Shown piece after piece: positions 2,146 to 49,827 of a stretch of DNA of 64,000 nt; position 1 is the stretch's first letter; every line of letters starts with the position of its first letter. The position numbers and the translations under genes are program-made. Below the pieces are notes generated by a model. The model ran no database searches and was not told where the DNA came from. It was given only the letters and a program-made list of their open reading frames with translations. This DNA comes from Ruminococcus sp. Its GTDB lineage: Bacteria; Bacillota; Clostridia; Lachnospirales; Lachnospiraceae. The stretch is taken from the NCBI GenBank assembly GCA_023663085.1, contig JAMPIB010000004.1:38297-102296 (forward strand), given 5' to 3'.

Positions 2146-2508
2146 ATGGCAAAGAATATTTTAGTATGTGATGATGCAGCATTCATGCGTATGATGATCA
2201 AGGATATCCTGACAAAGAACGGATATAACGTTGCTGGCGAGGCTGAAAATGGTGCGAAAGCTGTTGAAAAATATAACGAGCTGAAACCCGACCTCGTACT
2301 TATGGATATCACAATGCCTGAAATGGATGGTATCCAGGCACTTAAGAAGATCAAAGAGGGTGATCCGGGCGCTATGGTCATCATGTGTTCTGCTATGGGA
2401 CAGCAGGCGATGGTTATCGAGTCTATCCAGTCCGGTGCTAAAGACTTTATTGTAAAGCCGTTCCAGGCGGATCGTGTATTGGAAGCTGTTAAGAAAGTAG
2501 TGGGTTAA
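2146..2508 (+). CDS. cheY: Chemotaxis response regulator CheY
   Basis: This 120-residue single-domain receiver carries the chemotaxis signal from CheA to the switch proteins FliM/FliY. The acidic pair D9-D10, phosphoacceptor D54 (VLMDITMPEMDG), S82 and K104 (VKPF) are all present. There is no output domain. The start is supported by AGGAGAAGAGA upstream. It lies directly after its phosphatase fliY and before fliO, the usual order in Clostridia. Confidence 0.95.
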   Translation: MAKNILVCDDAAFMRMMIKDILTKNGYNVAGEAENGAKAVEKYNELKPDLVLMDITMPEMDGIQALKKIKEGDPGAMVIMCSAMGQQAMVIESIQSGAKDFIVKPFQADRVLEAVKKVVG

Positions 2509-2898
2509 ATGATACTGACTGTTTCAGACAGTACAAATTCCTATCTGCAGTTTGTGACTATACTTATTATATTTGTTTTCGTACTGGCGATCACTTATCT
2601 TACGACCAGATGGATCTCCGGATATCAGCGGAGTAAAAACGCAGGAACCAATCTGGAAGTGATAGAGTCTTTTCGGCTTGCGGATAATAAGTATATTCAG
2701 ATTATTCGTGTTGGGCAGAAATATTTGGCAGTTGCGCTGGGCAAGGATTCTGTTACAATGTTGACAGAGATTCCAGAGGAACAGCTTATACTGTCAAGCG
2801 GTGAGACGAATAAACAGTTAAGTTTTAAAGAATTATTTGAAAAAGTACAAAAGAAAACTTTGCTGGAAAAAGAAGATGACCGAAATAAGAGTGAGTAG
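2509..2898 (+). CDS. fliO: Flagellar biosynthesis protein FliO
   Basis: FliO is a small membrane protein that helps assemble the FliP-containing export gate. The 129-residue product has one membrane segment at about residues 13-34 (FVTILIIFVFVLAITYL) followed by a basic cytoplasmic part with the family-like NLEVIESFRLADNKYIQIIRVG. The ATG follows the cheY stop with no gap, so translation is probably coupled. The family is poorly conserved; the assignment relies on topology plus position before fliP. Confidence 0.88.
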   Translation: MILTVSDSTNSYLQFVTILIIFVFVLAITYLTTRWISGYQRSKNAGTNLEVIESFRLADNKYIQIIRVGQKYLAVALGKDSVTMLTEIPEEQLILSSGETNKQLSFKELFEKVQKKTLLEKEDDRNKSE

Positions 2899-2908
2899 GC
2901 GATAAAAG

Positions 2909-3802
2909 ATGAAAAAATATTTTTCCGGACATCATGTGAAAAAACTGATATGCCTGCTTTTCCTTGCAGGCATATTATTTACCGTTACATTTGCCCACGA
3001 GAAAGATATTGTTAATGCGACAGGCGGTCTTGACCATGTAGAGACTCACCTGACTGGGGATACAGAAGAAAGAACCAATATCAATGAACCCGGTGTTTCA
3101 GAATCCGAGGAAGATCTGCAGGAATTAAATATTGCGAATACCGTGACGGTCACATACAACGATGGTAATGGTACGTTAAACGGAGCACTCCGGATATTAC
3201 TTACCCTTACTCTTATTGCTATTGCACCGTCATTGATTATTATGTTAACCTCGTTTACGAGGATTATCATAGTACTGCATTTTACCAGAGCGGCGCTCAA
3301 TACGCAGACGGCTCCGCCGAACAATGTACTGATCGGGCTGGCGCTGTTTTTGACGTTTTTTATCATGCAGCCGACGATTTCCACCATCTATACGGAGGCA
3401 GTCGTGCCGTTCGAGGCGGGTGAACTGGATCAGGAAGAGGCATTTTATGCGGCCATTGAACCGATCAGGGAATTTATGTATCCGCATACACAGTTAAAGG
3501 ATGTCGGTCTTTTCTTAGAAGTCAGCCGTACAGACTGGGATGGGGAGAATCTGGATGATATTCCGTTCAGTGTGCTGGTGCCGAGTTTTATCATCAGTGA
3601 ATTGCGGACAGCCTTTATCATCGGATTTTTGATATATATTCCGTTTATCGTAATCGACATGGTAGTCGCCTCGACCCTGATGGCCATGGGTATGATGATG
3701 CTGCCGCCGACAACGATATCAATGCCCTTCAAGATTCTGTTATTCGTACTTGCGGATGGCTGGAATCTTGTGATCGGAGAACTTGTGAAGACGTTCTACT
3801 GA
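2909..3802 (+). CDS. fliP: Flagellar export gate protein FliP
   Basis: FliP is a core subunit of the FliPQR export gate. The 297-residue protein starts with a signal-like hydrophobic segment (LICLLFLAGILFTVTFA), then a non-conserved spacer. The conserved body follows from about residue 100: LTLIAIAPSLIIMLTSFTRI, QTAPPNNVLIGLALFLTFF and VLVPSFIISELRTAFIIGF. It ends with the typical LVIGELVKTFY. The extended N-terminus is common in Gram-positive FliP proteins. Confidence 0.96.
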   Translation: MKKYFSGHHVKKLICLLFLAGILFTVTFAHEKDIVNATGGLDHVETHLTGDTEERTNINEPGVSESEEDLQELNIANTVTVTYNDGNGTLNGALRILLTLTLIAIAPSLIIMLTSFTRIIIVLHFTRAALNTQTAPPNNVLIGLALFLTFFIMQPTISTIYTEAVVPFEAGELDQEEAFYAAIEPIREFMYPHTQLKDVGLFLEVSRTDWDGENLDDIPFSVLVPSFIISELRTAFIIGFLIYIPFIVIDMVVASTLMAMGMMMLPPTTISMPFKILLFVLADGWNLVIGELVKTFY

Positions 3803-3840
3803 CAGAGCAGGACGGATGAATGAGAATGGAGGAATTTTAG

Positions 3841-4110
3841 ATGACAATAGATGACGTGACTGCGGTTGCTTCGCAGGCTCTGTTTACGATCATCAAGTGT
3901 GCGGCGCCGGTTTTGCTTGTTTCTTTGTGTGTGGGCCTTATTGTCAGTATTTTTCAGACGGTAACTTCCATTCAGGAGCAGACGCTTACCTTTGTACCGA
4001 AAGTGCTGGCGATCTTTCTGACGATCATACTGCTTGGTCACTGGATGTTGAATAATATGGTAGAGTATATGATAACTCTGTGGGAGAATTTTAGCATATA
4101 TATAAGATGA
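3841..4110 (+). CDS. fliQ: Flagellar export gate protein FliQ
   Basis: This 89-residue protein has two transmembrane hairpin helices (ALFTIIKCAAPVLLVSLCVG and VLAIFLTIILLGHWMLNNM) separated by the conserved SIFQTVTSIQEQTLTFVPK loop that marks FliQ. It forms the export gate with FliP and FliR. A GGAGG lies 8 nt before the ATG. Length and order are standard. Confidence 0.95.
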   Translation: MTIDDVTAVASQALFTIIKCAAPVLLVSLCVGLIVSIFQTVTSIQEQTLTFVPKVLAIFLTIILLGHWMLNNMVEYMITLWENFSIYIR

Positions 4111-4161
4111 TTGTTGATCGTCAGACAATTATCAATCAACTGATAATATTGGAGCATTGAC

Positions 4162-4941
4162 ATGATAGATATTTCTTTTTCTTATGCAGATTTAGAGTTT
4201 TTTTTACTGATTCTGGTTCGCGTGAGCTGTTTTGTTTATATTGCTCCTTTTTTTGGGATGAGTAATACACCGAACAGGGTTAAGGTAGGGCTTTCTGTTT
4301 TCCTGGCCTATCTGCTGTTTGCCTGTCTCGATCATACGGAGGTTGTTTATGATTCGGTGCTGGGATATGCGCTGATCGTCATGAAAGAAGCGGTGACGGG
4401 GCTTCTGATCGGCTGGGGAGCACAGCTTTGTATGACGGTAGCTTCTTTTGCCGGCAGTATAGCGGATATGGAAGTCGGTCTTTCCATGGTCAATCTGATG
4501 GATCCTCTGACAAGACAGAATGCAACGTTCAGCGGTGTATTTTATCAATATATGTTTTCTTTGTTTTTAATTATTACCGGTATGTATCAGTATTTATTAA
4601 GAGCGTTGATCGATACGTTTACTCTGATACCGGTGGGTGGAGCTGTTTTTAACATGGATTCGCTGCTTACCTCGGCGATCCAGTTTATGAGTGATTATCT
4701 CATTATCGGCTTTCGTATATGTCTGCCGATTTTCTGTGTTATATTATTACTGAACTGCGTTTTGGGAATACTGGCCAAAGTCGCGCCGCAGATGAACATG
4801 TTTGCAGTAGGTTTGCAGCTTAAAGTGCTGGTGGGGCTTAGTGTAATGTTTCTGACAGTGCGGATGCTTCCGGGCGCGGCGGATTTTATCTTTAAGGAAA
4901 TGAAGTCGGTCATTGCATCTTTTGTGGAGGGGATGATATAA
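4162..4941 (+). CDS. fliR: Flagellar export gate protein FliR
   Basis: FliR completes the FliPQR gate. The 259-residue protein is mostly membrane helices, with family features FFLILVRVSCFVYIAPFFG near the start and LLNCVLGILAKVAPQMNMFAVG near residue 200. The start is preceded by TTGGAG. flhB begins 1 nt after the stop, so the two are probably translationally coupled. Confidence 0.95.
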   Translation: MIDISFSYADLEFFLLILVRVSCFVYIAPFFGMSNTPNRVKVGLSVFLAYLLFACLDHTEVVYDSVLGYALIVMKEAVTGLLIGWGAQLCMTVASFAGSIADMEVGLSMVNLMDPLTRQNATFSGVFYQYMFSLFLIITGMYQYLLRALIDTFTLIPVGGAVFNMDSLLTSAIQFMSDYLIIGFRICLPIFCVILLLNCVLGILAKVAPQMNMFAVGLQLKVLVGLSVMFLTVRMLPGAADFIFKEMKSVIASFVEGMI

Positions 4942-4942
4942 G

Positions 4943-6055
4943 ATGCTCTTAGAATATGATCTCCAGTTTTTTGCAAAGGATGGGCCCGGCGGTGAGAAGA
5001 CCGAGGAGCCTACCGCCAAGAAACTCCAGGATGCCAGAAAAGAAGGACAGGTTGCCAAGAGTAAGGAGATCACCAACGCTTTTGAACTTTTGACACTGTT
5101 TCTGGTACTGAAATACTGGACATCCTTTCTGGGCGATTCCTTTGTGGGAATATTCCGTAATATCTATACGCAGATACCGGAATATATCAAACTTTATGAT
5201 GGGTACCTGCAGAATACAACATTCCGGACAATTTTTATCCGCGTTATGGTGAGGCTGCTCATTATGATCGGGCCGGTGCTGCTTTTGGGTTTTCTGGTGG
5301 CTTTTATCTGTGATGTGGTACAGGTTAAGTGGAGACCGACAGGCAAGCCGCTGCAGCCGAAGTTTAATAAACTCAATCCGGTCAATGGATTTAAGAGAAT
5401 TTTTTCAGTCAATTCCTTAATGGAACTGGTAAAATCGTTATTGAAAATAGGAGTTATCGTATATGCGGTCTATTCTTATCTGAGAAAGAATATGCCCAGT
5501 ATTTATCTGCTGTACGGCCTTTCTCTGAATGAAGCCATTTTAGAGATTGGTAATCTGGTCATCAATCTGGGGTTCCGCATCGCGATTTTCTATATGCTGG
5601 TTGCGATCATCGACTATGTCTATCAGAAGATAAAGTTCAAGAATGACATGAAGATGACCAAGCAGGAAGTCAAGGATGAATATAAGAACCAGGAAGGTGA
5701 TCCGCAGATCAAGGGCAAGCAGAGACAGCGTATGCAGGAGGCGTCCAGAAGACGTATGATGCAGCAGCTGCCGGAGGCGGATGTCGTCATTACCAACCCG
5801 ACGCATTATGCGGTGGCTATTAAATACGACCCGGAGAAGTATGACGCACCTTATGTAGTGGCCAAAGGCGTGGATTATCTGGCACAGAGGATCAAGGACA
5901 GAGCCAGAGAGCACCACATTGAAATAGTAGAGAACAAACCGCTTGCCAGAATGCTTTATGCCAATGTGGAAGTCGGCAGCGTAGTACCGCCGGAGCTCTA
6001 TCAGGCGGTTGCGGAAGTACTTGCTTTCGTATATCATTTACAGGGGAAAGTATAG
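4943..6055 (+). CDS. flhB: Flagellar export switch protein FlhB
   Basis: FlhB controls the export switch from rod/hook to filament substrates. The N-terminus has the typical GGEKTEEPTAKKLQDARKEG. Four membrane helices follow to about residue 235, then the cytoplasmic autocleavage domain with N285-P286-T287-H288, the self-cleaving motif, intact. It is 370 residues, normal length. The last codons and stop lie inside a 20-bp tandem duplication that extends into the gap before flhA. Confidence 0.96.
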   Translation: MLLEYDLQFFAKDGPGGEKTEEPTAKKLQDARKEGQVAKSKEITNAFELLTLFLVLKYWTSFLGDSFVGIFRNIYTQIPEYIKLYDGYLQNTTFRTIFIRVMVRLLIMIGPVLLLGFLVAFICDVVQVKWRPTGKPLQPKFNKLNPVNGFKRIFSVNSLMELVKSLLKIGVIVYAVYSYLRKNMPSIYLLYGLSLNEAILEIGNLVINLGFRIAIFYMLVAIIDYVYQKIKFKNDMKMTKQEVKDEYKNQEGDPQIKGKQRQRMQEASRRRMMQQLPEADVVITNPTHYAVAIKYDPEKYDAPYVVAKGVDYLAQRIKDRAREHHIEIVENKPLARMLYANVEVGSVVPPELYQAVAEVLAFVYHLQGKV

Positions 6056-6090
6056 AAATATAAGGGAAAGTATAGAAATATAAGGGAAAG
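6044..6090 (+). repeat. 20-bp tandem duplication spanning the flhB stop codon
   Basis: The unit GGGAAAGTATAGAAATATAA occurs twice head to tail (6044-6063 and 6064-6083), followed by a partial third copy (GGGAAAG). The first copy contains the flhB stop TAG. The partial copy forms the start of the flhA ribosome binding site GGGAAAGGAGG. It looks like a recent slippage duplication. Confidence 0.9.
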
Positions 6091-6101
6091 GAGGAGACGA
6101 T

Positions 6102-8144
6102 ATGGGAAGTTTAAAGAAAGCGGATGTCGGTGTGGCAGCATATCTGCTGGCGGCATTCATCATGCTTATCATTCCCATCTCTTCGCAGCTTCTGGATGTG
6201 CTTCTGGCCTGCAATATCGCGGTGGCCTTTACCATCATGTTCGGCTGTATGTTTGCCAATGAAGTACTGAAGATGTCCTATTTCCCGACGATCCTGCTGT
6301 TTACCACGGTATTCAGGATCGCCCTTAACGTGTCCTCTACAAGACTTATTTTGACGACCGGCGATCCGGGTAATGTTGTCGAGACTTTCGGCCAGTATGT
6401 AGGCGGCGGTGATATCATCGTCGGCTGTATCGTATTTATCATTCTGATCATCATCCAGTTTATGATAATCAACAAAGGTTCTGAACGTGTGGCTGAGGTA
6501 ACGGCGAGATTTACGCTGGATGCCATGCCCGGTAAGCAGATGGCGATTGATGCCGATTTGAATACGGGCGCCATTACGGATGCAGAAGCCAAGCAGCGCC
6601 GTGATAAGATTCAGGAAGAATCCAGTTTCTTCGGTTCCATGGATGGTGCCGTTAAGTATGTAAAAGGAGATGCGACGGCAGGTCTTCTGATCACGGCGAT
6701 CAATATCATCGGCGGTATCGCCATGGGTGTGCTGCGGCAGGGACTGGAACTGAATGACGCGCTGAATAAATTTACGATATTAACGATAGGTGATGGTCTG
6801 GTAAGCCAGATACCTTCGCTGCTTATCTCTCTTTCCACCGGTATTCTGGTCACCAAGGGTTCCAAGGATGCGGATTTTGGTACCGTACTGCTCAGTCAGT
6901 TGTTCGGTGTGCCGAAAGTCCTTTATCTGGTGGGCGCCGTGCTTATTCTGCTCGGTGTGGCCACGCCGTTAAATCCCATTATCTTCATCGGTCTGGGACT
7001 GGCCTTTGTCGTTGTCGGAAGAGTTATCGCGGGCACCATAGAAACGGCGGAGATCGAGAGAGAAGTGGATGTGGAAGAAGTGGAGGCGGAGGAGATCAGA
7101 CAGCATGAAAACGTTACTTCCCTGTTACAGGTCGATCCGATCGAACTGGAGTTTGGTTACGGTATCATCCCGCTGGCGGATGTGAATCAGGGCGGTGACT
7201 TGTTAGACCGTGTCGTAATGATCCGTAGGCAGATCGCTCTGGAACTTGGTACGGTCGTGCCTATCATCCGTCTGCGTGATAATATTCAGTTGAACCCGAA
7301 CCAGTATATCATTAAGATAAAAGGCGTGCAGGTAAGCGAAGGTGAGATTCTCTTCGACCATTATATGGCCATGAATCCGGGGTATGTAGAAGAAGAAATT
7401 ACGGGTATCCCGACGTTTGAGCCTTCTTTCCATCTGCCTGCCATCTGGATCACAGAAGGACAGAGGGAGCGTGCGGAGAGTATGGGCTATACGGTTGTCG
7501 ATCCGCCGTCCATCATCGCCACGCATCTGACGGAGATCATCAGGCAGTACATAGCGGAACTGCTGACCAGACAGGATGTACAGAACCTTGTCAACAATTT
7601 AAAAGAGTCCAATCCGTCTCTGGTGGAGGAACTTGTGCCGAAGCTGCTTGGACTTGGCGAGATACAGAAAGTATTACAGAATCTCTTAAGCGAAGGTATT
7701 TCCATAAGAGACCTGCTTACCATATTTGAAACACTGGCGGATTATGCGCAGTCCACGAGAGATACGGATATTCTGACGGAGTATGTCAGACAGAGTCTCA
7801 AACGTGCGATCTCCAACAAATTTTTCCCGTCTAATGAGACGACCAGCGTCGTGACGCTCGATCCGAAGCTGGAGCAGGAGATCATGGGCAGCGTGAAGCA
7901 GACAGAACAGGGCGCTTATCTGACGCTCGATCCGGCCAAGACCAAAGCTATCATGGATTCGGTCGGTACGGAGACCAAGAAACTGGAAGATCTGGGCAAG
8001 ATCCCGATCGTTATCACTTCGCCGATCGTCCGTGCTTACTTTAAGAAACTGACAGAAGATTATTTCCGTGATCTGGTGGTTGTATCTTATAATGAAGTGG
8101 AATCCAATATTGAATTACAGTCTGTTGGGATGGTGACAGCATAA
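6102..8144 (+). CDS. flhA: Flagellar export apparatus protein FlhA
   Basis: FlhA is the large export-gate protein whose cytoplasmic ring receives substrate-chaperone complexes. The 680-residue product has eight predicted membrane helices in its first ~310 residues. These include the conserved loop LTTGDPGNVVETFGQYV...GSERVAEVTARFTLDAMPGKQ and VSQIPSLLISLSTGILVTK. The soluble C-terminal domain (about 340-680) contains DPIELEFGYGIIPLAD. GGGAAAGGAGG precedes the ATG. The stop overlaps flhF by one base (TAATG). Confidence 0.97.
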   Translation: MGSLKKADVGVAAYLLAAFIMLIIPISSQLLDVLLACNIAVAFTIMFGCMFANEVLKMSYFPTILLFTTVFRIALNVSSTRLILTTGDPGNVVETFGQYVGGGDIIVGCIVFIILIIIQFMIINKGSERVAEVTARFTLDAMPGKQMAIDADLNTGAITDAEAKQRRDKIQEESSFFGSMDGAVKYVKGDATAGLLITAINIIGGIAMGVLRQGLELNDALNKFTILTIGDGLVSQIPSLLISLSTGILVTKGSKDADFGTVLLSQLFGVPKVLYLVGAVLILLGVATPLNPIIFIGLGLAFVVVGRVIAGTIETAEIEREVDVEEVEAEEIRQHENVTSLLQVDPIELEFGYGIIPLADVNQGGDLLDRVVMIRRQIALELGTVVPIIRLRDNIQLNPNQYIIKIKGVQVSEGEILFDHYMAMNPGYVEEEITGIPTFEPSFHLPAIWITEGQRERAESMGYTVVDPPSIIATHLTEIIRQYIAELLTRQDVQNLVNNLKESNPSLVEELVPKLLGLGEIQKVLQNLLSEGISIRDLLTIFETLADYAQSTRDTDILTEYVRQSLKRAISNKFFPSNETTSVVTLDPKLEQEIMGSVKQTEQGAYLTLDPAKTKAIMDSVGTETKKLEDLGKIPIVITSPIVRAYFKKLTEDYFRDLVVVSYNEVESNIELQSVGMVTA

Positions 8145-9403
8145 TGATAATCAAAAAATTTTTGGGAAAAACTGAAGCCGAGGCAATCGAAAATGCCAAG
8201 AAAGAACTGGGCGCCAATGTCGTTGTCATGAATGTAAGAAACGCCAAGCGCAAAGGTCTGTTTGATTTCTTAAAGCCGCAGATGGTAGAAGTTACGGTCG
8301 CTCTCGAAGAGGAGGCTCCGGTCAGTGAAGATCCGGTCTCCGCAGATGTAAAGGCCGCGGTCTCGGCCATCAATGACGTGGTCGTTTCCAGCATCAATAA
8401 CGCGCAGGCGGCGCAGCCGGAGCCCAGACAGTCTGCGGGACTTTTGGGCGGACAGGAAGAGTTTGCCGCTAAGGGCGGATTTGATAAGAAAGAAAACAAT
8501 GCCATCGAAGAGCGGCTGGACAGTTTACAGTCTCTGTTAGAGCAACAGCTCCAGAAACCCGAAGAGGAGAAAAAAGAAGAGGAAAAGAGGGAAGAACCGG
8601 TCAGCGAGACAGATAAGTTCATGAAACTGCTGCATTCCACAATGATCGAGAATGAAGTGGATGAAACGTATGCCGGACAGATCATCGAAGAGATAGAGAA
8701 GATCAACAAACCCAACAGTCCCTTTGATTTTGCCCTTGCCAATACCTATCAGAAAATGATACTGAAATTCGGCAAGCCTGTCGGTATCACACCATCGGAA
8801 AAAGGTGTCAAAGTAATCTTTTTCGTAGGGCCTACGGGTGTCGGTAAGACCACGACCATAGCCAAGATCGCCTCCAGATTCCAGGTGGATGATAAGAAGA
8901 AAGTGGCGCTTTTAACGGCGGATACCTATCGTATCGCGGCGGCGGAGCAGCTCCGTACCTATGCCAATATACTGGAAGTGCCTTTCCGTATCGTTTATGC
9001 GATAGAAGAAGTAGAGCAGGCGCTGATCGATTTCAAGGATTATGACTATATCCTGGTGGATACGGCGGGACATTCCTATCAGAATACGGCGCAGAAGGAA
9101 AATATGAGCCGTTTCATCCATTCGGTTGATGGTCTGGTGGAAAAAGAGGTATTTCTGGTCTTAAGCGCCACGACCAAATATAAGGACTTGATAAGCATCG
9201 CGGATGCCTATAAAGAGATGGCTGACTATAAGCTGATCTTTACGAAACTGGATGAGACGACGACACTCGGAAATCTGCTGAATCTGAAACTTTACACCGG
9301 CGCGCCGCTTTCTTATGTGACGCACGGGCAGAATGTACCGGATGATATCGAGAACTTTAATCCACAAAAGACGGTCAAGAGATTGCTTGGCGGAAAGAGC
9401 TAA
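8144..9403 (+). CDS. flhF: SRP-like GTPase FlhF (flagellar placement)
   Basis: FlhF is an SRP-family GTPase that sets flagellum number and position together with FlhG. The N-terminal region (1-100, MIIKKFLGKTEAEAIENAKK) and an acidic linker precede the NG domain. The P-loop GPTGVGKTT has K235 and T236; DTAGH is the G3 motif and TKLDE the G4 motif. It is 419 residues. It overlaps flhA by 1 nt and is followed closely by flhG. Confidence 0.95.
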   Translation: MIIKKFLGKTEAEAIENAKKELGANVVVMNVRNAKRKGLFDFLKPQMVEVTVALEEEAPVSEDPVSADVKAAVSAINDVVVSSINNAQAAQPEPRQSAGLLGGQEEFAAKGGFDKKENNAIEERLDSLQSLLEQQLQKPEEEKKEEEKREEPVSETDKFMKLLHSTMIENEVDETYAGQIIEEIEKINKPNSPFDFALANTYQKMILKFGKPVGITPSEKGVKVIFFVGPTGVGKTTTIAKIASRFQVDDKKKVALLTADTYRIAAAEQLRTYANILEVPFRIVYAIEEVEQALIDFKDYDYILVDTAGHSYQNTAQKENMSRFIHSVDGLVEKEVFLVLSATTKYKDLISIADAYKEMADYKLIFTKLDETTTLGNLLNLKLYTGAPLSYVTHGQNVPDDIENFNPQKTVKRLLGGKS

Positions 9404-9415
9404 GGAGGACAGGAA

Positions 9416-10291
9416 ATGGATCAGGCTGAACAACTGAGAAATATAATAAAAGCAAGCAGCCAGCCTCAACGACCATTGGCAAGAGTCATCACCGTTACAA
9501 GTGGAAAAGGCGGTGTCGGGAAATCAAACGTAGCGATCAATCTTGCTGTCCAGTTTAAGAAAATGGGACAGCGGGTTATTATACTGGATGCGGATTTCGG
9601 ACTTGCGAACATAGAAGTCATGTTCGGCGCGGTACCGAAACATAACTTGTGCGATTTAATTTATCAGGGCAAAAATATCCGTGAGATCATTACCTGGGGG
9701 CCTATGGATATCGGTTTTATATCCGGCGGGTCAGGGATTGCGGGAATGTCCAATTTAAGCAGGGAATATCTGACTTATATCATCAAGAACCTTTCGGAAC
9801 TGGATGAAATGGCGGATATCATCATCGTGGATACCGGAGCCGGTATTTCCGATGCAGTCGTGGAGTTTCTGGTGGCGAGCGGTGAGATCCTGCTCGTAAC
9901 AACGCCGGAGCCGACTTCTATCACGGATTCTTATTCGCTTGTAAAGGCGCTGAACAGGCATCCGCGGTATTCCAAAGAAGTTTCACATGTGAAGGTGATC
10001 GCCAATAAGGTGGAAAACGGGCAGGAAGGCAGGCTTTTGTTTGAAAAGCTGGATACGGTCGTGGCGAGGTATTTAAAGATACCGCTTACCTATCTGGGGA
10101 TGGTGCCGCAGGATCCGCAGTTAGCCAAGGCTGTTATGCAGCAGATGCCGGTCTCCATTCAGAATCCGGAGAGCAAGTCTGCGCAGGCATATGAGATGCT
10201 GGCGGCCAAACTGATGAATAAAGAACTGAATAAGACCCTGACGAAACGTGGTATGGCGGCATTTTTTTCGCATATTATATCAAAAAGATAA
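9416..10291 (+). CDS. flhG: MinD-like ATPase FlhG (FleN/YlxH)
   Basis: FlhG is a ParA/MinD-type ATPase that activates FlhF and limits flagellar number. The N-terminal peptide MDQAEQLRNII matches the FlhF-activating DQA motif. The deviant Walker A is GKGGVGKSN (residues 30-38), with DADFGLAN and the VDTGAG Walker B. It is 291 residues. The start is supported by AGGAGGACAGG. It lies 12 nt after flhF. Confidence 0.95.
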   Translation: MDQAEQLRNIIKASSQPQRPLARVITVTSGKGGVGKSNVAINLAVQFKKMGQRVIILDADFGLANIEVMFGAVPKHNLCDLIYQGKNIREIITWGPMDIGFISGGSGIAGMSNLSREYLTYIIKNLSELDEMADIIIVDTGAGISDAVVEFLVASGEILLVTTPEPTSITDSYSLVKALNRHPRYSKEVSHVKVIANKVENGQEGRLLFEKLDTVVARYLKIPLTYLGMVPQDPQLAKAVMQQMPVSIQNPESKSAQAYEMLAAKLMNKELNKTLTKRGMAAFFSHIISKR

Positions 10292-44735: not shown

Positions 44736-44965
44736 ATAATCACGAAACTCCGAGGCGGGTCGGCAGAGGGTAAAGGACGGGAGGCGGCGGAAAAAGGATT
44801 CTGCTGCAAGGCCCTATAAAAACGCCGGTGGTTAGCGAGGTTCTTCACGAGCTTAGCACCGTTGCGCTTTTTATCGGAGCGAAAGCGTGCCTTAAAGCAG
44901 AAACTTTTTCCACGCCTTCCGTCCTTTACCCTCTACCGGCTCAACCCTCGGAGTTTCGTGATTAT
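44736..44965. repeat. Palindromic structured element, copy 1
   Basis: This 230-bp sequence is nearly fully self-complementary. The outer arms 44736-44755 and 44946-44965 are perfect 20-bp inverted repeats; 44766-44780 pairs with 44919-44933 (15 bp); AGGCG/CGCCT, GAAAAAG/CTTTTTC and CTGCT/AGCAG follow. The 105-nt core (44799-44903) continues the stem with AAGGC/GCCTT, TAAAAA/TTTTTA and CGGTG/CACCG. The core is 97/105 identical to copy 2. It lies between a possible promoter and the start codon of the split peptidoglycan-binding gene. No direct target duplication is evident. Confidence 0.85.
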
Positions 44966-44996: not shown

Positions 44997-45626
44997 ATGG
45001 CTATCGGTTACTTGCTCATACAGGCGAAAACGGCGCGTGACGCGGTTCCTCTGGAAGGCGTACAGATCAGGATCACGGATGATGAAGGACGCGGTGTGTA
45101 TGAATTGACAACGGATGAAAGCGGGAATGCGCCGCTGGTTTCTTTGGAAACGGTCGGAAAGGCTGTTTCTCTGGAACCGAATTATATCGGGAATCCTTAT
45201 GTAAGTTATAATGTTCTGGCGCTGGCACAGGGATTTAATTCTGTCTATATTGCCGGGATACCCATTTATGAGGGGGAAACGGCGATTCAGACGCTTACGC
45301 TTGTGCCGATGGAAGAGATGCAGCGTTCTCCGGAAACAATGGAAATTACCCTGAATAAACCTGCAGCCTCCATGCGCGGAGGGCGTTATCAGGAGGCGCC
45401 CGTTGAGGAACCGCGGATTTTACGGCAGGTAGTTATCCCTGACCCGATCACGGTGCATTTGGGAAGACCTTCCGTTTATGCCTCTAATGTGCAGGTCTCT
45501 TTTCCGGATTATGTGAAAAACGTCGCCAGCAGCGAAATCTATCCGACGTGGCCGGAGGCGGCCCTGCGGGCTAATATTTACGCTATCATCACCTTTGCGT
45601 TAAACAGGGTTTTTACGGAATGGTAG
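44997..45626 (+). CDS. Peptidoglycan-binding/LysM protein, 5' part of interrupted gene
   Basis: These 209 codons are the first part of a gene split by a 3,007-bp element. A beta-sandwich-like region (LEGVQIRITDDEGRGVYELTTDESGNAPLV) leads to PTWPEAALRANIYAIITFALNRVFTEW, which breaks off at a TAG created by the element boundary. The 3' part resumes with YRSRGYNFDITNS. Joining at the shared GGTA gives an uninterrupted frame. The start is supported by AAAGGAGAA. There is no signal peptide. A truncated product may still be made. Confidence 0.85.
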   Translation: MAIGYLLIQAKTARDAVPLEGVQIRITDDEGRGVYELTTDESGNAPLVSLETVGKAVSLEPNYIGNPYVSYNVLALAQGFNSVYIAGIPIYEGETAIQTLTLVPMEEMQRSPETMEITLNKPAASMRGGRYQEAPVEEPRILRQVVIPDPITVHLGRPSVYASNVQVSFPDYVKNVASSEIYPTWPEAALRANIYAIITFALNRVFTEW

Positions 45627-45645
45627 CGGAATCAACGGCAATTCG
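45622..45645. other. Left attachment junction (attL) of the serine-recombinase element
   Basis: Host sequence ends ...GGAATGGTA and the element begins GCGGAATCAACGG. The shared core GGTA is at 45622-45625. The element-side half-site has CGGAA (45627-45631), a 7-nt spacer and CAATTCG (45639-45645). These mirror TTCCG and CGAATTG at the right junction, with equal spacing. Confidence 0.85.
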
Positions 45646-45655
45646 AGAATGAGAC

Positions 45656-45671
45656 ATGCCCAAGAGGGCAT
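45656..45671. repeat. Short hairpin at the left end of the element
   Basis: ATGCCC and GGGCAT pair across loop AAGA. A similar ATGCC/GGCAT hairpin occurs at 49972-49985 outside the element. Its role is unknown. Confidence 0.55.
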
Positions 45672-45708
45672 AGGATTGCATTAAGAAGCATGAAAATGGG
45701 GAAATGCG

Positions 45709-46035
45709 GTGCTGAGCAGAGATTTTGCGTATAAGGAATCTGAGCAGGCGGAAGAGAAATGTGAGGCGTATGAACGGAAAGAGACGGAATGTGCAAAACA
45801 GGGATGGAAAGAGGTAGAATGTACAGAAACAGGGCAGGGCGGCATGAAAGTCATCGTGGAGTTTTCCCAAAAAACAGATAGCCGTGAAAAAAATACCGGC
45901 CATGAGGAAACGGTCAGGCAGGAGATACAGGAACTTCTGATAGACATGCTGCGGGAGCATTACAGGAAAAGTTCAGTCCAGAGTTCCGCCCAAAGTTCCG
46001 CAGAAAATGTTTCCGGGGGAGCAGATGTTTTATGA
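45709..46035 (+). CDS. Small protein overlapping the recombinase gene; possible recombination accessory factor
   Basis: This 108-residue acidic protein is unrecognised. The central part MKVIVEFSQKTDSREKNTGHEETVRQEIQELLIDMLREHYRK looks folded, with a beta strand and a helix, between a Glu/Cys-rich start and a Ser-rich end. It starts with GTG after GGGGAA. Its stop overlaps the recombinase ATG by 4 nt (ATGA), a sign of translational coupling. A directionality factor or recombinase partner is a guess from position only. Confidence 0.6.
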   Translation: MLSRDFAYKESEQAEEKCEAYERKETECAKQGWKEVECTETGQGGMKVIVEFSQKTDSREKNTGHEETVRQEIQELLIDMLREHYRKSSVQSSAQSSAENVSGGADVL

Positions 46036-47669
46036 GAAAAAACGTAAAAAGAGTGAGGATGTTATTACGCGTCAGTTCCAACCAGCAGTTGGAAGCGGAC
46101 GGCGATCTGTCGGTGCAAAGACAGCTTGTAAGAGAGTATGCGGAAAGTCAGCCGGACTGGAAACTGGATACGAAAGAGTATTTTGAGGGCAGTATCAGCG
46201 CTTATAAAAATGCGGTCGCAGACAGGGATATTTTACAGGAGGCGCTGGAGGATGCCAGAAAAGGGGAATATGATATTCTGGTCACTTATAAGGATGACCG
46301 TATCGGGCGCAGGATGTGGGAGATCGGCGCTTATGTCATGACTTTAAAAAACAGTGGCGTGGATATTTATACCGTAAAGGATGGCTGTATCTCGCCGGAA
46401 AGCGATGATATCATGGGACAGATGGTATTAGCTCTCAGATATGGTAACGCGCAAAAGAGCAGTTCCGATACCGGGATGAGGGTCAGGGATACGGCGCAGA
46501 AACTGGTACAGAAAGGAAAGTTCATGGGCGGTAAGGCGCCTTACGGATATGAACTTGTTTTATCGGGAGAGATCAGCAAGCATGGCCGGGCCCTGCATAA
46601 GTTAAAGATCATCCCCGCTCAGGCGGAGGTTGTCCGTTACATTTATCAGCTGTCCCTGTATAGAGAATACGGTTCTGCGAAGATAGCCAGATGTTTGAAC
46701 GAAGATTCCCGTTACCATCTTTTAGCGCCGCATGATGTCTGGAAAAGCGCGGCCATCACCAGTATCCTGACGAATCCGGTCTATGCAGGTTATACAGCCT
46801 ATAAACGTAGAGAACATAAAAATGGCAAATATCACAGACTACAGAGCAATGACTGGGTGAGGGCGGAATATCCTAATGAGGAGATCAGGATCATTGAAGA
46901 AAAAGTATGGGACAGGACACAAAAAAAACGGGAACTCCGGGCGGCAAAGTTCAGGGGAGCTGCGGAAAGTGAGAAGTTAAAAGCCGCCGGAAACAAAGAG
47001 GGAGCTTTACCTCTTATCGACATTATATACTGCGGATATTGCGGCAGAAAACTGACAAATGGAACAAAATACAGCTATTGGACAATTAAGGCCAGTGGGG
47101 AAAGACGGGCGCGTAAAATTCCAATCTACCGTTGTCAGACGGCGCGGGAAGGGATACCGCATGAAAATCCGGGTCAGTTCCGGGCGGATAAGATCGAGCA
47201 GATCGTTTATGAGCGGATCGGCAGTTATCTGAATTGTTTTTTGACGGAGGAAGATATGAAAAACAGGATGCGGACCTGGCATGATGGGGAGATGGAGGCG
47301 CTCACAGAAGAAATAGAGCACTTAAAAAAAGAACTGGAAAGAACGGTCTGCGGCATGGAAATCCTGCAAAGTCATATTCCGGAGGCCATAAACGGCGATT
47401 ATCCGCTGCGGGTCGAAGAACTGGCGGCGGTCATACAAAAACAGCGCAGGAAGAAAATGCTGCAACAGGAACAGATAAAAGAAAAGGAGAAAATCCGGCA
47501 GGAGGCAGAGAGCCGATACCATGGGTGGGAAAAAAAAGAAGAGAAATATCCAACGCCGGAACAGCTGTTTAGAGAAGCCGATGGGCATACGAAACGGGTA
47601 CTCATAGACCGTCTGGTTGAGCGGATTGATGTAGCAGATGGACAGATTCGGATACGTTTCCGGCTATAA
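46032..47669 (+). CDS. Large serine recombinase
   Basis: The 545-residue site-specific recombinase has a resolvase catalytic domain (1-~150). The nucleophile S15 is in LLRVSSNQQ, with the arginines of SVQRQLVREY and YKDDRIGRRMW. A recombinase domain follows (KAPYGYEL...LTNPVYAGYTAYKRREHKNG), then a zinc ribbon starting CGYCGRKLTNG with YRCQ, a coiled coil (EALTEEIEHLKKELERTV), and the C-terminal LIDRLVERIDVADGQIRIRF. It is probably the enzyme that integrated the surrounding element. No truncation is visible. Confidence 0.95.
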   Translation: MRKNVKRVRMLLRVSSNQQLEADGDLSVQRQLVREYAESQPDWKLDTKEYFEGSISAYKNAVADRDILQEALEDARKGEYDILVTYKDDRIGRRMWEIGAYVMTLKNSGVDIYTVKDGCISPESDDIMGQMVLALRYGNAQKSSSDTGMRVRDTAQKLVQKGKFMGGKAPYGYELVLSGEISKHGRALHKLKIIPAQAEVVRYIYQLSLYREYGSAKIARCLNEDSRYHLLAPHDVWKSAAITSILTNPVYAGYTAYKRREHKNGKYHRLQSNDWVRAEYPNEEIRIIEEKVWDRTQKKRELRAAKFRGAAESEKLKAAGNKEGALPLIDIIYCGYCGRKLTNGTKYSYWTIKASGERRARKIPIYRCQTAREGIPHENPGQFRADKIEQIVYERIGSYLNCFLTEEDMKNRMRTWHDGEMEALTEEIEHLKKELERTVCGMEILQSHIPEAINGDYPLRVEELAAVIQKQRRKKMLQQEQIKEKEKIRQEAESRYHGWEKKEEKYPTPEQLFREADGHTKRVLIDRLVERIDVADGQIRIRFRL

Positions 47670-47724
47670 ATGAACTGAATAAGCGTCGGTTTCAGTATTC
47701 TAAAACGAAAGGAATGAAAGGATT

Positions 47725-47814
47725 ATGAGTACAGCACTTATGGCAAGAAAACCCAAAAGAGATTTCAGGACAGTTGCGATCGCAAAGATTTTGATTTTGC
47801 GCTTTCTGTATTAA
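47725..47814 (+). other. Possible 29-residue ORF after the recombinase
   Basis: ATG with AAAGGATT upstream opens MSTALMARKPKRDFRTVAIAK and ends after 29 residues. It is basic and unrecognised. It could be a small peptide or a remnant of a larger gene; evidence for expression is weak. Confidence 0.25.
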
Positions 47815-47834
47815 CAGCATAGACTGTGTTTGAG

Positions 47835-47880
47835 TTGACATAGCATTTTTAATGACTTTTATAACTTTCTCTGCTATAAT
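47835..47880 (+). promoter_or_regulatory. Predicted promoter for the two-gene module in the element
   Basis: A consensus TTGACA (47835-47840) is followed after 18 bp by TTATAA (47859-47864), and a separate TATAAT lies at 47875-47880. Either could serve as the -10. The first gene starts about 45 nt downstream. Confidence 0.6.
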
Positions 47881-47925
47881 ATATCAATAAGTGCGATACA
47901 CTAAAATGAAAAGGAGTTGAGGCTC

Positions 47926-48195
47926 ATGGTTTATCCTTATATTACTTTGGCAGATGGTACGGAGATTGTGCATACGCAGATTTTTGAAGAAGATGGAATC
48001 TCAAAGGTGGAAGTCCACTTTGAACGCCCTACGGAAGATGGCTTTGATACTGCAAGGTGTCAGTTGCCTTCGTATACATGGATGACAAGAAAAGGATTTT
48101 CAGAGGGTGAAATGGAACTGTTTGAACAAATGGTGCGGAGTAACGCTCATTTATTCTACAAATATGGCGCCAATGGGGGTGTACAGATTGCCTAG
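47926..48195 (+). CDS. Small protein of a DUF4160-associated pair, unknown function
   Basis: The 89-residue protein MVYPYITLADGTEIVHTQIF...KVEVHFERPTEDGFDTARCQLPSY resembles a small family I associate with DUF4160 partners in Firmicutes. The C-terminal part is MELFEQMVRSNAHLFYKYGANGG. AAGGAG precedes the ATG. The DUF4160 start overlaps its 3' end by 8 nt. The pair has been thought of as toxin-antitoxin-like, but no function is shown. Confidence 0.7.
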   Translation: MVYPYITLADGTEIVHTQIFEEDGISKVEVHFERPTEDGFDTARCQLPSYTWMTRKGFSEGEMELFEQMVRSNAHLFYKYGANGGVQIA

Positions 48196-48466
48196 CCTCT
48201 TTATTATTGGAAGTTATAAGGTTTTCTTTTAGTCTAATGAAAATAATGAATCTATTCATGTCCATGTTACAAAAGGAAAGCCTGATGCAAATGCGACAAA
48301 AATCTGGTTGACGAAAAACGGCGGCTGCATCATTGCCAATAATAAAGACCATATCCCTGCTGGAGACTTAAATGAATTGCTGACAATTATTCAGGCGCAA
48401 TATTTTTTTATATGCGCAGAGTGGAAACGTCATTTTAAAACAGATGATATCAGATTTTATTGTTAA
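48188..48466 (+). pseudogene. DUF4160 protein, amber stop at codon 15
   Basis: A TTG start after GGGGGTG opens LPSLFIIGSYKVFF, then TAG (48230-48232), then the same frame continues SNENNESIHVHVTKGKPDANATKIWL...GGCIIANN to TAA. The HVHV-KGKP-ANA-WL-GGC pattern is DUF4160. The stop sits where relatives carry Trp (TGG to TAG is one base). The rest of the frame is intact, so the mutation may be recent, or the codon may be read through. Confidence 0.75.
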
Positions 48467-48470
48467 ACTG

Positions 48471-48508
48471 AGGCAGACAAATATGAAAATGTCCATATTT
48501 GCCTGCCT
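48471..48508 (+). terminator. Long hairpin after the DUF4160 gene
   Basis: AGGCAGACAAATATG pairs with CATATTTGCCTGCCT (one internal mismatch) across an 8-nt loop, followed by GTTATATAA. The stem is strong but the T run is poor, so it may be a terminator or an element-end structure. Confidence 0.55.
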
Positions 48509-48608
48509 GTTATATAAATACCATAATTACTATTTCCATATTATCTTATATTCGAGTTTCTCTTTTAGCTTGACTACCAACTTGTCCTCAATAACTCCTT
48601 TGTAATTA

Positions 48609-48632
48609 CGAATTGATGGTGGTTCCGGGGTA
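48609..48632. other. Right attachment junction (attR) of the serine-recombinase element
   Basis: The element ends CGAATTG (48609-48615), 7 nt, TTCCG (48623-48627), GG, then the shared core GGTA (48629-48632); host sequence resumes TCGGAGCC. The arms are the exact mirror of those at the left junction. Confidence 0.85.
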
Positions 48633-49827
48633 TCGGAGCCGCGGCTACAATTTTGACATTACCAACAGCACGGCATACGATCAGGCTTTTGTGTACGGGC
48701 GGACGACATATGAATCCATCAACCGTATCGTGGATGAGATTTTTAATGAGTATGTGCGCAGGAGAGGACAGGAAACGCCGTATTTTACATCTTTTTGTAA
48801 TGGAACCACGGTTACCTGTTCGGGACTGTCACAGTGGGGAACGGTCACACTGGCGCAGCAGGGGCTTACGCCTATCCAGATCCTTCGCAACTATTATCCG
48901 AATGATGTGGAAATCGCAGAGAGTAATACGATCAGCGGCGTTTTATCCTCCTATCCCGGAACTGCTCTGCGCCTTGGGAGCACAGGACTGGCCGTGGAAA
49001 CGATACAGACGTATTTGAACAGGATACGGAGAAATTATCCGGCCATTCCGCTGATTACTGACGAGGCTGGTGTATTCGGTAATACGACAAGAGCGGCCGT
49101 AGTGAAATTCCAGAGTATTTTTAATCTGGCTTCTGACGGCATTGTAGGAAAATCCACCTGGTATAAGATTTCTGAAATCTATACTGCCGTAACCAGGCTG
49201 GCGGAGTTAAACAGCGAGGGGACGACGCTGGGGATCGGGACGGTGCCGCCTTCTTCCGTACTGCGGCAGGGAGCGAGGGGCGAAGATGTCATTACCCTGC
49301 AATATCTTTTGAATCTGATTGCGGAATATTATCCATCGGTGCCCAGTGTGGCGCAGGATGGCATCTTCGGAAACGGTACGAGACAGGCGGTCATGGTCTT
49401 TCAGCGCCTGAAACAACTGACGCCCGATGGGATAGTCGGCGCGGCAACATGGAAAGCGCTCTATGATGTATATCGCGGCATCCAGAATAATATACCGTCA
49501 GGAGGCGCGGGCAGCGATACGATGGAATATGTCGTCCGTGCGGGCGATACGCTGTGGCTGTTAGCGCAAAGATTCGGCACAACGGTTGACGCCATCAAGC
49601 GGCTGAACGGTCTGAACGGAAATGAATTAAGTATCGGCCAGATCTTACAGATACCGGCCGGAGGCGGTTCCTCATCCTATTTTGAATATACAGTCCGCTC
49701 TGGCGATACACTGTGGCTGTTAGCACAGCGGTTCGGTACAACGGTCGATGCGATAAAGAACCTGAACGGCCTTGGCGGGAACGCTTTAAGTATCGGTCAG
49801 GTGCTGCGCATTCCGGGCGCTTCATAG
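48613..49827 (+). CDS. Peptidoglycan-binding/LysM protein, 3' part of interrupted gene
   Basis: From codon TAT at 48631 the sequence continues the split gene (YRSRGYNFDITNSTAYDQAFVYG); the six codons before it belong to the element. A segment FCNGTTVTCSGLSQWGTVTLAQQGLTPIQILRNYYPNDVEI resembles the C-terminal part of SpoIID-type proteins. Two peptidoglycan-binding_1 domains follow (TALRLGSTGLAVETIQTYLN..., VLRQGARGEDVITLQYLLN...). Two nearly identical LysM domains end the protein (GDTLWLLAQRFGTTVDAIK). Without excision it lacks a clear ribosome site. The restored protein would be 607 residues. Confidence 0.85.
   Translation: MMVVPGYRSRGYNFDITNSTAYDQAFVYGRTTYESINRIVDEIFNEYVRRRGQETPYFTSFCNGTTVTCSGLSQWGTVTLAQQGLTPIQILRNYYPNDVEIAESNTISGVLSSYPGTALRLGSTGLAVETIQTYLNRIRRNYPAIPLITDEAGVFGNTTRAAVVKFQSIFNLASDGIVGKSTWYKISEIYTAVTRLAELNSEGTTLGIGTVPPSSVLRQGARGEDVITLQYLLNLIAEYYPSVPSVAQDGIFGNGTRQAVMVFQRLKQLTPDGIVGAATWKALYDVYRGIQNNIPSGGAGSDTMEYVVRAGDTLWLLAQRFGTTVDAIKRLNGLNGNELSIGQILQIPAGGGSSSYFEYTVRSGDTLWLLAQRFGTTVDAIKNLNGLGGNALSIGQVLRIPGAS

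Follow-up and report, generated by a model that had tools for sequence, protein, structure and literature searches.

A serine recombinase element splitting a SleC-like gene of Ruminococcus sp. at a codon repeatedly occupied in Lachnospiraceae, with probable excision during sporulation

The window analyzed here, a 64,000-nt stretch of a Ruminococcus sp. genome (GCA_023663085.1, contig JAMPIB010000004.1, positions 38,297-102,296, forward strand), carries a compact integrative element with its own large serine recombinase (LSR) that splits a SleC-like gene between a Trp and a Tyr codon. The same codon of sleC-type genes is repeatedly occupied by related elements in other genomes, and we consider it probable that these LSR elements, resident at a fixed Trp/Tyr boundary, are excised in the sporulating mother cell, where the reading frame would be rebuilt. 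Coordinates are window positions throughout; L and G numbers denote loci and genomes, G000 being the window's own genome. The SleC-like gene of the window type (about 607 aa) is termed A, and sleC proper (about 430 aa) is termed B.

The left part of the split gene stops at a TAG immediately after the TGG at 45621-45623, and the right part re-enters in phase at the TAT at 48631; joined, they form a frame of 209 + 398 = 607 codons. An initial annotation of this DNA had placed the element ends here, with 3,007 bp between them, an in-phase frame across the join and a GGTA common to both junctions, and all of this holds to the base. Its description of the target as a LysM/peptidoglycan-binding gene was correct, but incomplete: the two parts have Pfam matches to SpoIID, PG_binding_1 and LysM, some of them weak, and the cut falls inside the SleC/SpoIID-like part and not the LysM part. 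Since PF08486 spans the cut position in intact relatives, neither part contains the complete domain. The intact form of the B paralog aligns over residues 20-422 with the structure of the "Spore cortex-lytic enzyme pre-pro-form" (PDB 9h68_A, E=2.2e-131), and A aligns with it over residues 33-402 (E=7.3e-74) and has extra peptidoglycan-binding and LysM domains. Judged from these alignments, B is sleC proper, because of its match to the cortex-lytic enzyme, and the window gene is a SleC-like paralog; gene identity and element anatomy are near certain. Uninterrupted forms of the gene, whose absence from relatives would have spoken against an insertion in the eyes of the initial annotation, are found in most of the genus: of 36 same-genus relatives, 32 have the A right part in one open frame of 538-653 aa, in 29 cases with no stop where it matches, and the remaining four have B-type matches only. 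Among 10 relatives a short pattern located the site in two, and in both it is gapless, as GAATGG/TAT and GAATGG/TAC, the slash marking the join.

What the initial annotation missed, besides the SleC identity, is the recurrence of the insertion and a second split gene in the same genome. The LSR was compared by alignment with 84,980 species genomes, and the best 80 of 141 relatives were kept, leaving 61 weaker ones outside the counts. A sleC-type half cut at the Trp/Tyr codon adjoins the LSR in 79 of these best 80, identified by tblastn in 77 and by last left-half codons ending in TEW in L095 and L096; the exception, L156, is a locus that ends inside the LSR gene. The hosts belong to many genera of the Lachnospiraceae, a few records bearing other titles, and 77 of the 80 have an LSR frame of 500 aa or more. 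The A gene is cut in four entries (the window, L104, L116 and L135), and sleC in all others. The window genome's own sleC is likewise split at the Trp/Tyr boundary by a 3,728-bp element (L073; G000:C13:8000-22000, gene strand 3717-7447), which encodes a DUF5722 protein and a 354-aa protein; the window element has a recombinase of its own and L073 has none. A P-arm-like CGAATCACC stands 22 nt before the L073 junction. Further splits of sleC at this boundary occur in G030, G008, G035, G034, G024 and G006, the elements of L073 and these six genomes measuring 3.2-11.3 kb, and in G002 the sleC halves lie on separate contigs. The 11.3-kb element of G024 (L080, G024:C4:26000-45500) holds two LSRs, one from each LSR subgroup. 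By appearance, L080 consists of two elements in tandem at a single sleC site.

Half genes were counted over 88 distinct entries, which yield 57 left and 70 right halves and omit identical records (L128/L132/L151, copies of L080/L077/L081, and L122/L141/L167, copies of L178/L179/L176). The Trp and Tyr codons were located by pattern near the BLAST ends, so that the codon itself is imposed, but the base after TGG and the base before the Tyr codon are independent of that pattern: TGG is followed by T in 57 of 57 left halves, and the right half is preceded by G in 70 of 70. The left halves are open over at least 190 codons in 56 cases and the right halves over their length in 61 (60 run to a stop, and L107 runs to the edge of its locus); the remaining nine right halves stop short after 70-106 codons, at CPNWMT or LGD, which is a second split site taken up below. 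Precise removal would restore the frame in the window as well as in the split-locus set.

The element ends have the structure of recombination sites. Joined, those of the window element read CGAATTG-7nt-TTCCG-6nt-CGGAA-7nt-CAATTCG around a central GT, the dyad that the initial annotation had recognized as attP. Scored as matches between 24-nt arms over the 42 loci with both ends, with shuffled right arms as the control, the dyad reaches 16/24 in the window and averages 13.7/24 overall (range 6-20), as against 6.0 for shuffled arms (99th percentile 11) and 5.1/24 for the host attB arms; hence the attP dyad lies beyond chance and attB has none, as had also been proposed. The core GT is present at both ends in 42 of 42 loci, element lengths run from 2,696 to 11,291 bp, and the exceptions to the dyad are L073 (6/24) and L080 (7/24). 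Both element orientations exist, since the LSR gene ends less than 200 bp from the right junction in 39 loci and from the left in 22; in the window this distance, to the right junction, is about 0.96 kb. The LSR exceeds the cut-offs of PF00239, PF07508 and PF13408, and is the only member of its family in its own genome at E<=1e-80. Residues R13, S15 and S16 are invariant across nine aligned LSRs, and the R-x-S-S region around them is what we take to be the catalytic serine region.

Many of the split genes also carry a sigmaK-type promoter. According to the available part of one report (PMC3789822), sleC of C. difficile belongs to the sigmaK regulon, is transcribed from a sigmaK promoter and is indispensable for germination. 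A sigmaK-type motif, AC-N16/17-CATANNNTA, is found 20-100 nt before a plausible start in 26 of the 55 split genes, against a mean of 0.3 and a maximum of 2 in 30 shuffles, and a looser form precedes 43 of 55 (shuffles: mean 4.5, maximum 9); the window's own genome encodes Spo0A_C. Excision upon sporulation is envisaged as likely, and its course could be as follows. An LSR-borne integrative element would have inserted between the Trp and Tyr codons, with crossover at GT, and vegetative cells would carry a broken gene. At sporulation the LSR, probably together with a small element-encoded recombination directionality factor (RDF), would recombine attL with attR, the element would circularize, and the frame would be rebuilt in the mother cell, the compartment that transcribes sleC-type genes. 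Because the element would stay in the forespore DNA, it would be inherited. We infer excision, its confinement to the mother cell, the RDF and the function of the rebuilt product from this body of evidence.

A purely selfish element that found a safe harbour in sleC-type genes and left them dead could account for part of the record if it spread horizontally and its host lineages were lost or lived without the enzyme. We regard this explanation as unlikely. The elements do move between hosts: LSR distances barely track sleC distances, while the two sleC halves agree. The Mantel correlation is 0.14 between LSR and sleC right half (n=47, 23 of 2000 permutations as high), 0.07 between LSR and left half (n=49, 353 of 2000) and 0.78 between the two halves (n=33, 0 of 2000), and this test rejects joint inheritance of LSR and sleC as a rule for the whole family, although it holds for some pairs (L077/L081, L126/L159 and L124/L143). 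The LSRs of L101 and L103 are 0.4% apart and their sleC left halves 31.7% apart, with 97% over 4.3 kb shared; for L121 and L123 the figures are 0.4% for the LSRs against 8.8% for sleC. The lack of an excised form in the window's own assembly likewise agrees with a selfish element. Dead genes, however, would not be expected to keep their promoters or their frames: of the 70 right halves 61 are intact, and the remaining nine are so up to the second junction. The dN/dS ratio, computed over pairs that are non-independent, has a median of 0.13 (range 0-0.27) for the right halves of 16 split pairs with dS of 0.1-1.2, and amounts to 0.057 for left halves (15 pairs) and 0.115 for LSRs (17 pairs). In L077 and L081, which are collinear with 94% over 10 kb, the right halves show a dN of 0.00 at a dS of 0.30, which points to constraint while split. 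On the evidence of these alignments, some copies have co-diverged with the split gene under purifying selection. Moreover, loss of SleC blocks germination of C. difficile, as stated in the available text of PMC3789822. A gut bacterium that is transmitted by spores would pay dearly for such a loss. The 76 LSR loci behind the dN/dS, collinearity and small open reading frame (ORF) work were hand-picked from the 80, the window and the same-genus loci, leaving out copies, contig-edge loci, L152 and L158 (broken alignments), L102, L112 and L116.

Stochastic or condition-dependent excision, acting as a switch akin to phase variation and independent of sporulation, seems to us quite improbable. No sporulation promoter was found on the element genes, and vegetative LSR expression is conceivable, as the available part of PMC5025042 reports it for the LSR CD1231 of C. 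difficile, but there would be nothing to switch in a sleC-type gene that has no known vegetative use and, in most split copies, carries a sigmaK-type promoter. That the two parts are separate working genes is scarcely credible: some in-frame start lies upstream within the open frame in 50 of 70 right halves and the LSR often reads toward the right half (39 loci), but separate genes are made unlikely by a Shine-Dalgarno-like sequence before any start in just two of the 70, the LSR reads toward the left half in 22 loci, and the cut lies inside one domain of what is a single gene in intact relatives.

Several observations weigh against programmed excision in the mother cell and temper our confidence in it. 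Excised attB and circular attP junctions have no match each, at up to two mismatches, in the window's own assembly, which does not settle the matter; the initial annotation was right to treat present-day activity as conjectural. Circular element contigs were sought as well, and none of 11 whole short contigs had overlapping ends. The L073 element splits the genome's own sleC with a poor dyad and no LSR, and the LSR of E. plexicaudatum (L152) looks frameshifted. In the 160 nt before the start of the window copy there is no sigmaK-type motif, and a palindromic repeat lies directly upstream of it. The genome's sigmaE/K-like factors fall below the sigK cut-off, the sigK-like one scoring 276.3 bits where the family requires 298.65. 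Upstream of the small ORF and LSR, the sigmaE/K consensus does not rise above shuffles (strict form 0 of 58; E-type 3 of 58 vs 1.6; loose form 13 of 58 vs 10.8); a mother-cell promoter on the element genes was accordingly looked for and not found, other control still being possible. The small ORF keeps its position, by a positional rule, in 60 of the 76 loci and is variable: a loose motif is present in 43 of those 60 and fails in 17, and 37 of the 60 are net acidic. Finally, many insertions may be recent, because LSR and sleC distances correlate weakly, and the lack of decay alone then proves little.

The frequency of such splits was gauged in an even sample of 150 family genomes (149 genera, at least 90% complete), of which 110 have a sleC right-half match. 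Judged by open frames, the gene is split at the Trp/Tyr boundary, or site 1, in five genomes (G000, G199, G164, G110 and G101) and at the second site in nine (G098, G123, G120, G114, G217, G189, G125, G094 and G118, the last by its right piece only), G155 being ambiguous; most other sleC genes in the sample are intact, at 413-500 aa. LSRs of the window family (E<=1e-80) occur in seven genomes, namely the five site-1 genomes and G171 and G215, both with intact sleC, whose LSRs are weaker relatives and are not inserted in sleC. In G171 (L168; G171:C13:64000-79000, about 2300-9712) the LSR, 26-30% identical, adjoins a gene broken at GTPI that resumes about 6 kb away, GTPI being common to both parts; no Pfam family was found for its left fragment, and by a motif we presume that the gene resembles an M23 peptidase. 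A split gene beside the LSR of G215 was looked for and none was seen.

The second sleC site, CPGWMT/QWGS (G120, G114, G094 and others; L172-L175, L180), is occupied by elements with other serine recombinases, and GGATGACC is shared at the split in G094. By eye, the cargo of second-site elements looks metabolic (for example sugar transport and serine dehydratase). Eight of 17 genomes searched whole have sleC in three pieces. In G061, G062 and G065 the pieces share a contig and a strand, and 58-66 kb of DNA precedes the last of them (labelled loci: L170/L171 and L181/L182, in G061 and G065); a 14-bp repeat marks the outer junction pair in G065, and the intervening DNA has ordinary-looking genes. 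Among IMG/VR contigs that end in parts of sleC, the cut follows CPNWM in L189 and L190, the sleC part of L192 and L193 begins at ANVLAI, upstream of site 1, and the sleC match of L188 diverges near the C-terminus, L188, L192 and L193 being putative provirus contigs; L183 and L185 carry the window LSR family. These contig ends suggest further sleC integration sites. It is tempting to speculate, as a tentative idea that we rate somewhat below even, that sleC-type genes of the Lachnospiraceae are recurrently programmed to be split by several unrelated kinds of element at several codons, that these are excised in the mother cell with germination depending on it, and that the window LSR serves the LSR-less L073 element in trans.

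Features of the window element and the split gene are collected in Table 1. Its ORFs of 60 aa or more comprise the LSR and otherwise small ones, none of them a gene for phage structure or replication; a prophage, integrative and conjugative element or integrative mobilizable element origin was rejected, there being no phage gene or other large ORF in that set. Membership of the LSR in XisF (the excision recombinase of the fdxN element) or CcrB, its best NCBIfam matches, is ruled out by scores far under the curated cut-offs (78.9 bits against 375 and 73 bits against 900, respectively). The small ORF upstream of the LSR gene, for which searches gave no family match, is a candidate RDF by virtue of its sequence context. 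Just 3' of the LSR gene, a short ORF (47727-47813) begins MSTALMARK and meets an early stop, possibly the start of a lost gene. The 230-bp palindromic repeat upstream of the SleC-like gene resembles a miniature inverted-repeat transposable element in shape.

Table 1. Positions of the split gene, the intervening element and its predicted recombination sites in the window
Feature	Position	Strand	Remarks
Palindromic repeat	44736..44965	.	20-nt perfect outer arms and 34-nt 85% inner arms; directly upstream of gene start
5' part of sleC-like gene, 209 codons	44997..45623	+	Ends with Trp codon TGG 45621-45623; 76% identity to intact L037
Left junction (attL) core GGTA	45622..45625	+	Inferred crossover GT 45623-45624
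Intervening element, 3,007 bp	45623..48629	+	Exact phase ambiguous inside 4-bp repeat
Left element end, attP half-site	45626..45647	+	CGGAA and CAATTCG motifs
Small ORF, 63 codons from ATG 45844	45844..46035	+	GTG at 45709 gives a longer form; 4-nt overlap with LSR start; candidate RDF
LSR, 545 aa	46032..47669	+	Resolvase, Recombinase and Zn-ribbon domains; PHROG 95 integrase E=4.7e-74
87-aa ORF	47932..48195	+	Without Pfam match
DUF4160-like stretch, probable cargo remnant	48239..48466	+	Pfam E=5.1e-8
Right element end, attP half-site	48608..48628	+	CGAATTG and TTCCG motifs
Right junction (attR) core GGTA	48629..48632	+	Inferred crossover GT 48630-48631
3' part, 398 codons and stop	48631..49827	+	Rest of SleC-like region, two PG_binding_1, two LysM; 78% identity to L037

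Programmed rearrangement in sporulation has so far involved a handful of genes, mostly in single species. Here, one gene of late mother-cell type is hit at the same codon across many genera of dominant gut commensals, and other elements occupy additional codons in it. Should excision on sporulation be confirmed, the germination of these commensals, and hence their transmission, would depend on a rearrangement that is annotated as a broken gene. The loci also form a natural set of minimal elements, the smallest of 2.7 kb, whose LSRs and att sites come as matched sets. They further illustrate cleanly the view that a gene needed only in a terminal cell gives mobile DNA a safe harbour. Split sleC is present in several cultured strains, among them Schaedlerella arabinosiphila DSM 106076, Hespellia stercorisuis DSM 15480, Mediterraneibacter catenae SW178 and Sellimonas caecigallum SW451, which makes the proposal directly testable.

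The open-licence literature searched, as judged by titles and abstract openings, yielded no report of an interrupted sleC, which is not proof of absence, and the available part of a prophage paper (PMC11318856) contains neither "spore" nor "sporulation". From the comparison with known systems, the window element very probably works like a skin/gin-type element and belongs to that kind. The gin element in gerE of Bacillus cereus ATCC10987, as described in the available text of PMC5595907, comprises 31 genes with three recombinases, and its excision was shown experimentally; like the sleC-type elements it is a non-phage element with serine recombinases that splits a late mother-cell gene at a short common core, with a dyad att site on the element and an asymmetric host attB. 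The RDF of gin is GirX. In contrast to gin, the sleC-type elements can be as small as 2.7 kb with one LSR and extend across a whole family, and their excision is inferred here. For skinCd, in sigK of C. difficile, the available part of PMC5025042 places the LSR gene just upstream of the sigK 3' part, much as here an LSR gene stands beside the 3' part of a split gene of the mother-cell line, and assigns to excision the requirement for a small separate protein, a 72-aa mother-cell RDF, whose candidate counterpart is the small ORF. Whereas skinCd is prophage-like, has 19 genes and interrupts a regulatory gene, the sleC elements sit in a structural enzyme gene and are mobile between hosts. SPbeta in spsM (PMC4191935), whose recombinase YokA is among the PDB relatives of the window LSR, and vfbin in spoVFB and yin in yabG (PMC10747680) also reside, in the available accounts, in sporulation genes and are excised, or thought to be excised, at sporulation. 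Those, however, are prophages or prophage-like elements of single strains or species, as opposed to a sleC codon that has been hit repeatedly by diverged elements. Elements of the skin/gin kind in sporulation genes are thus already known; what is new is the sleC target and the unusual breadth of its occupation.

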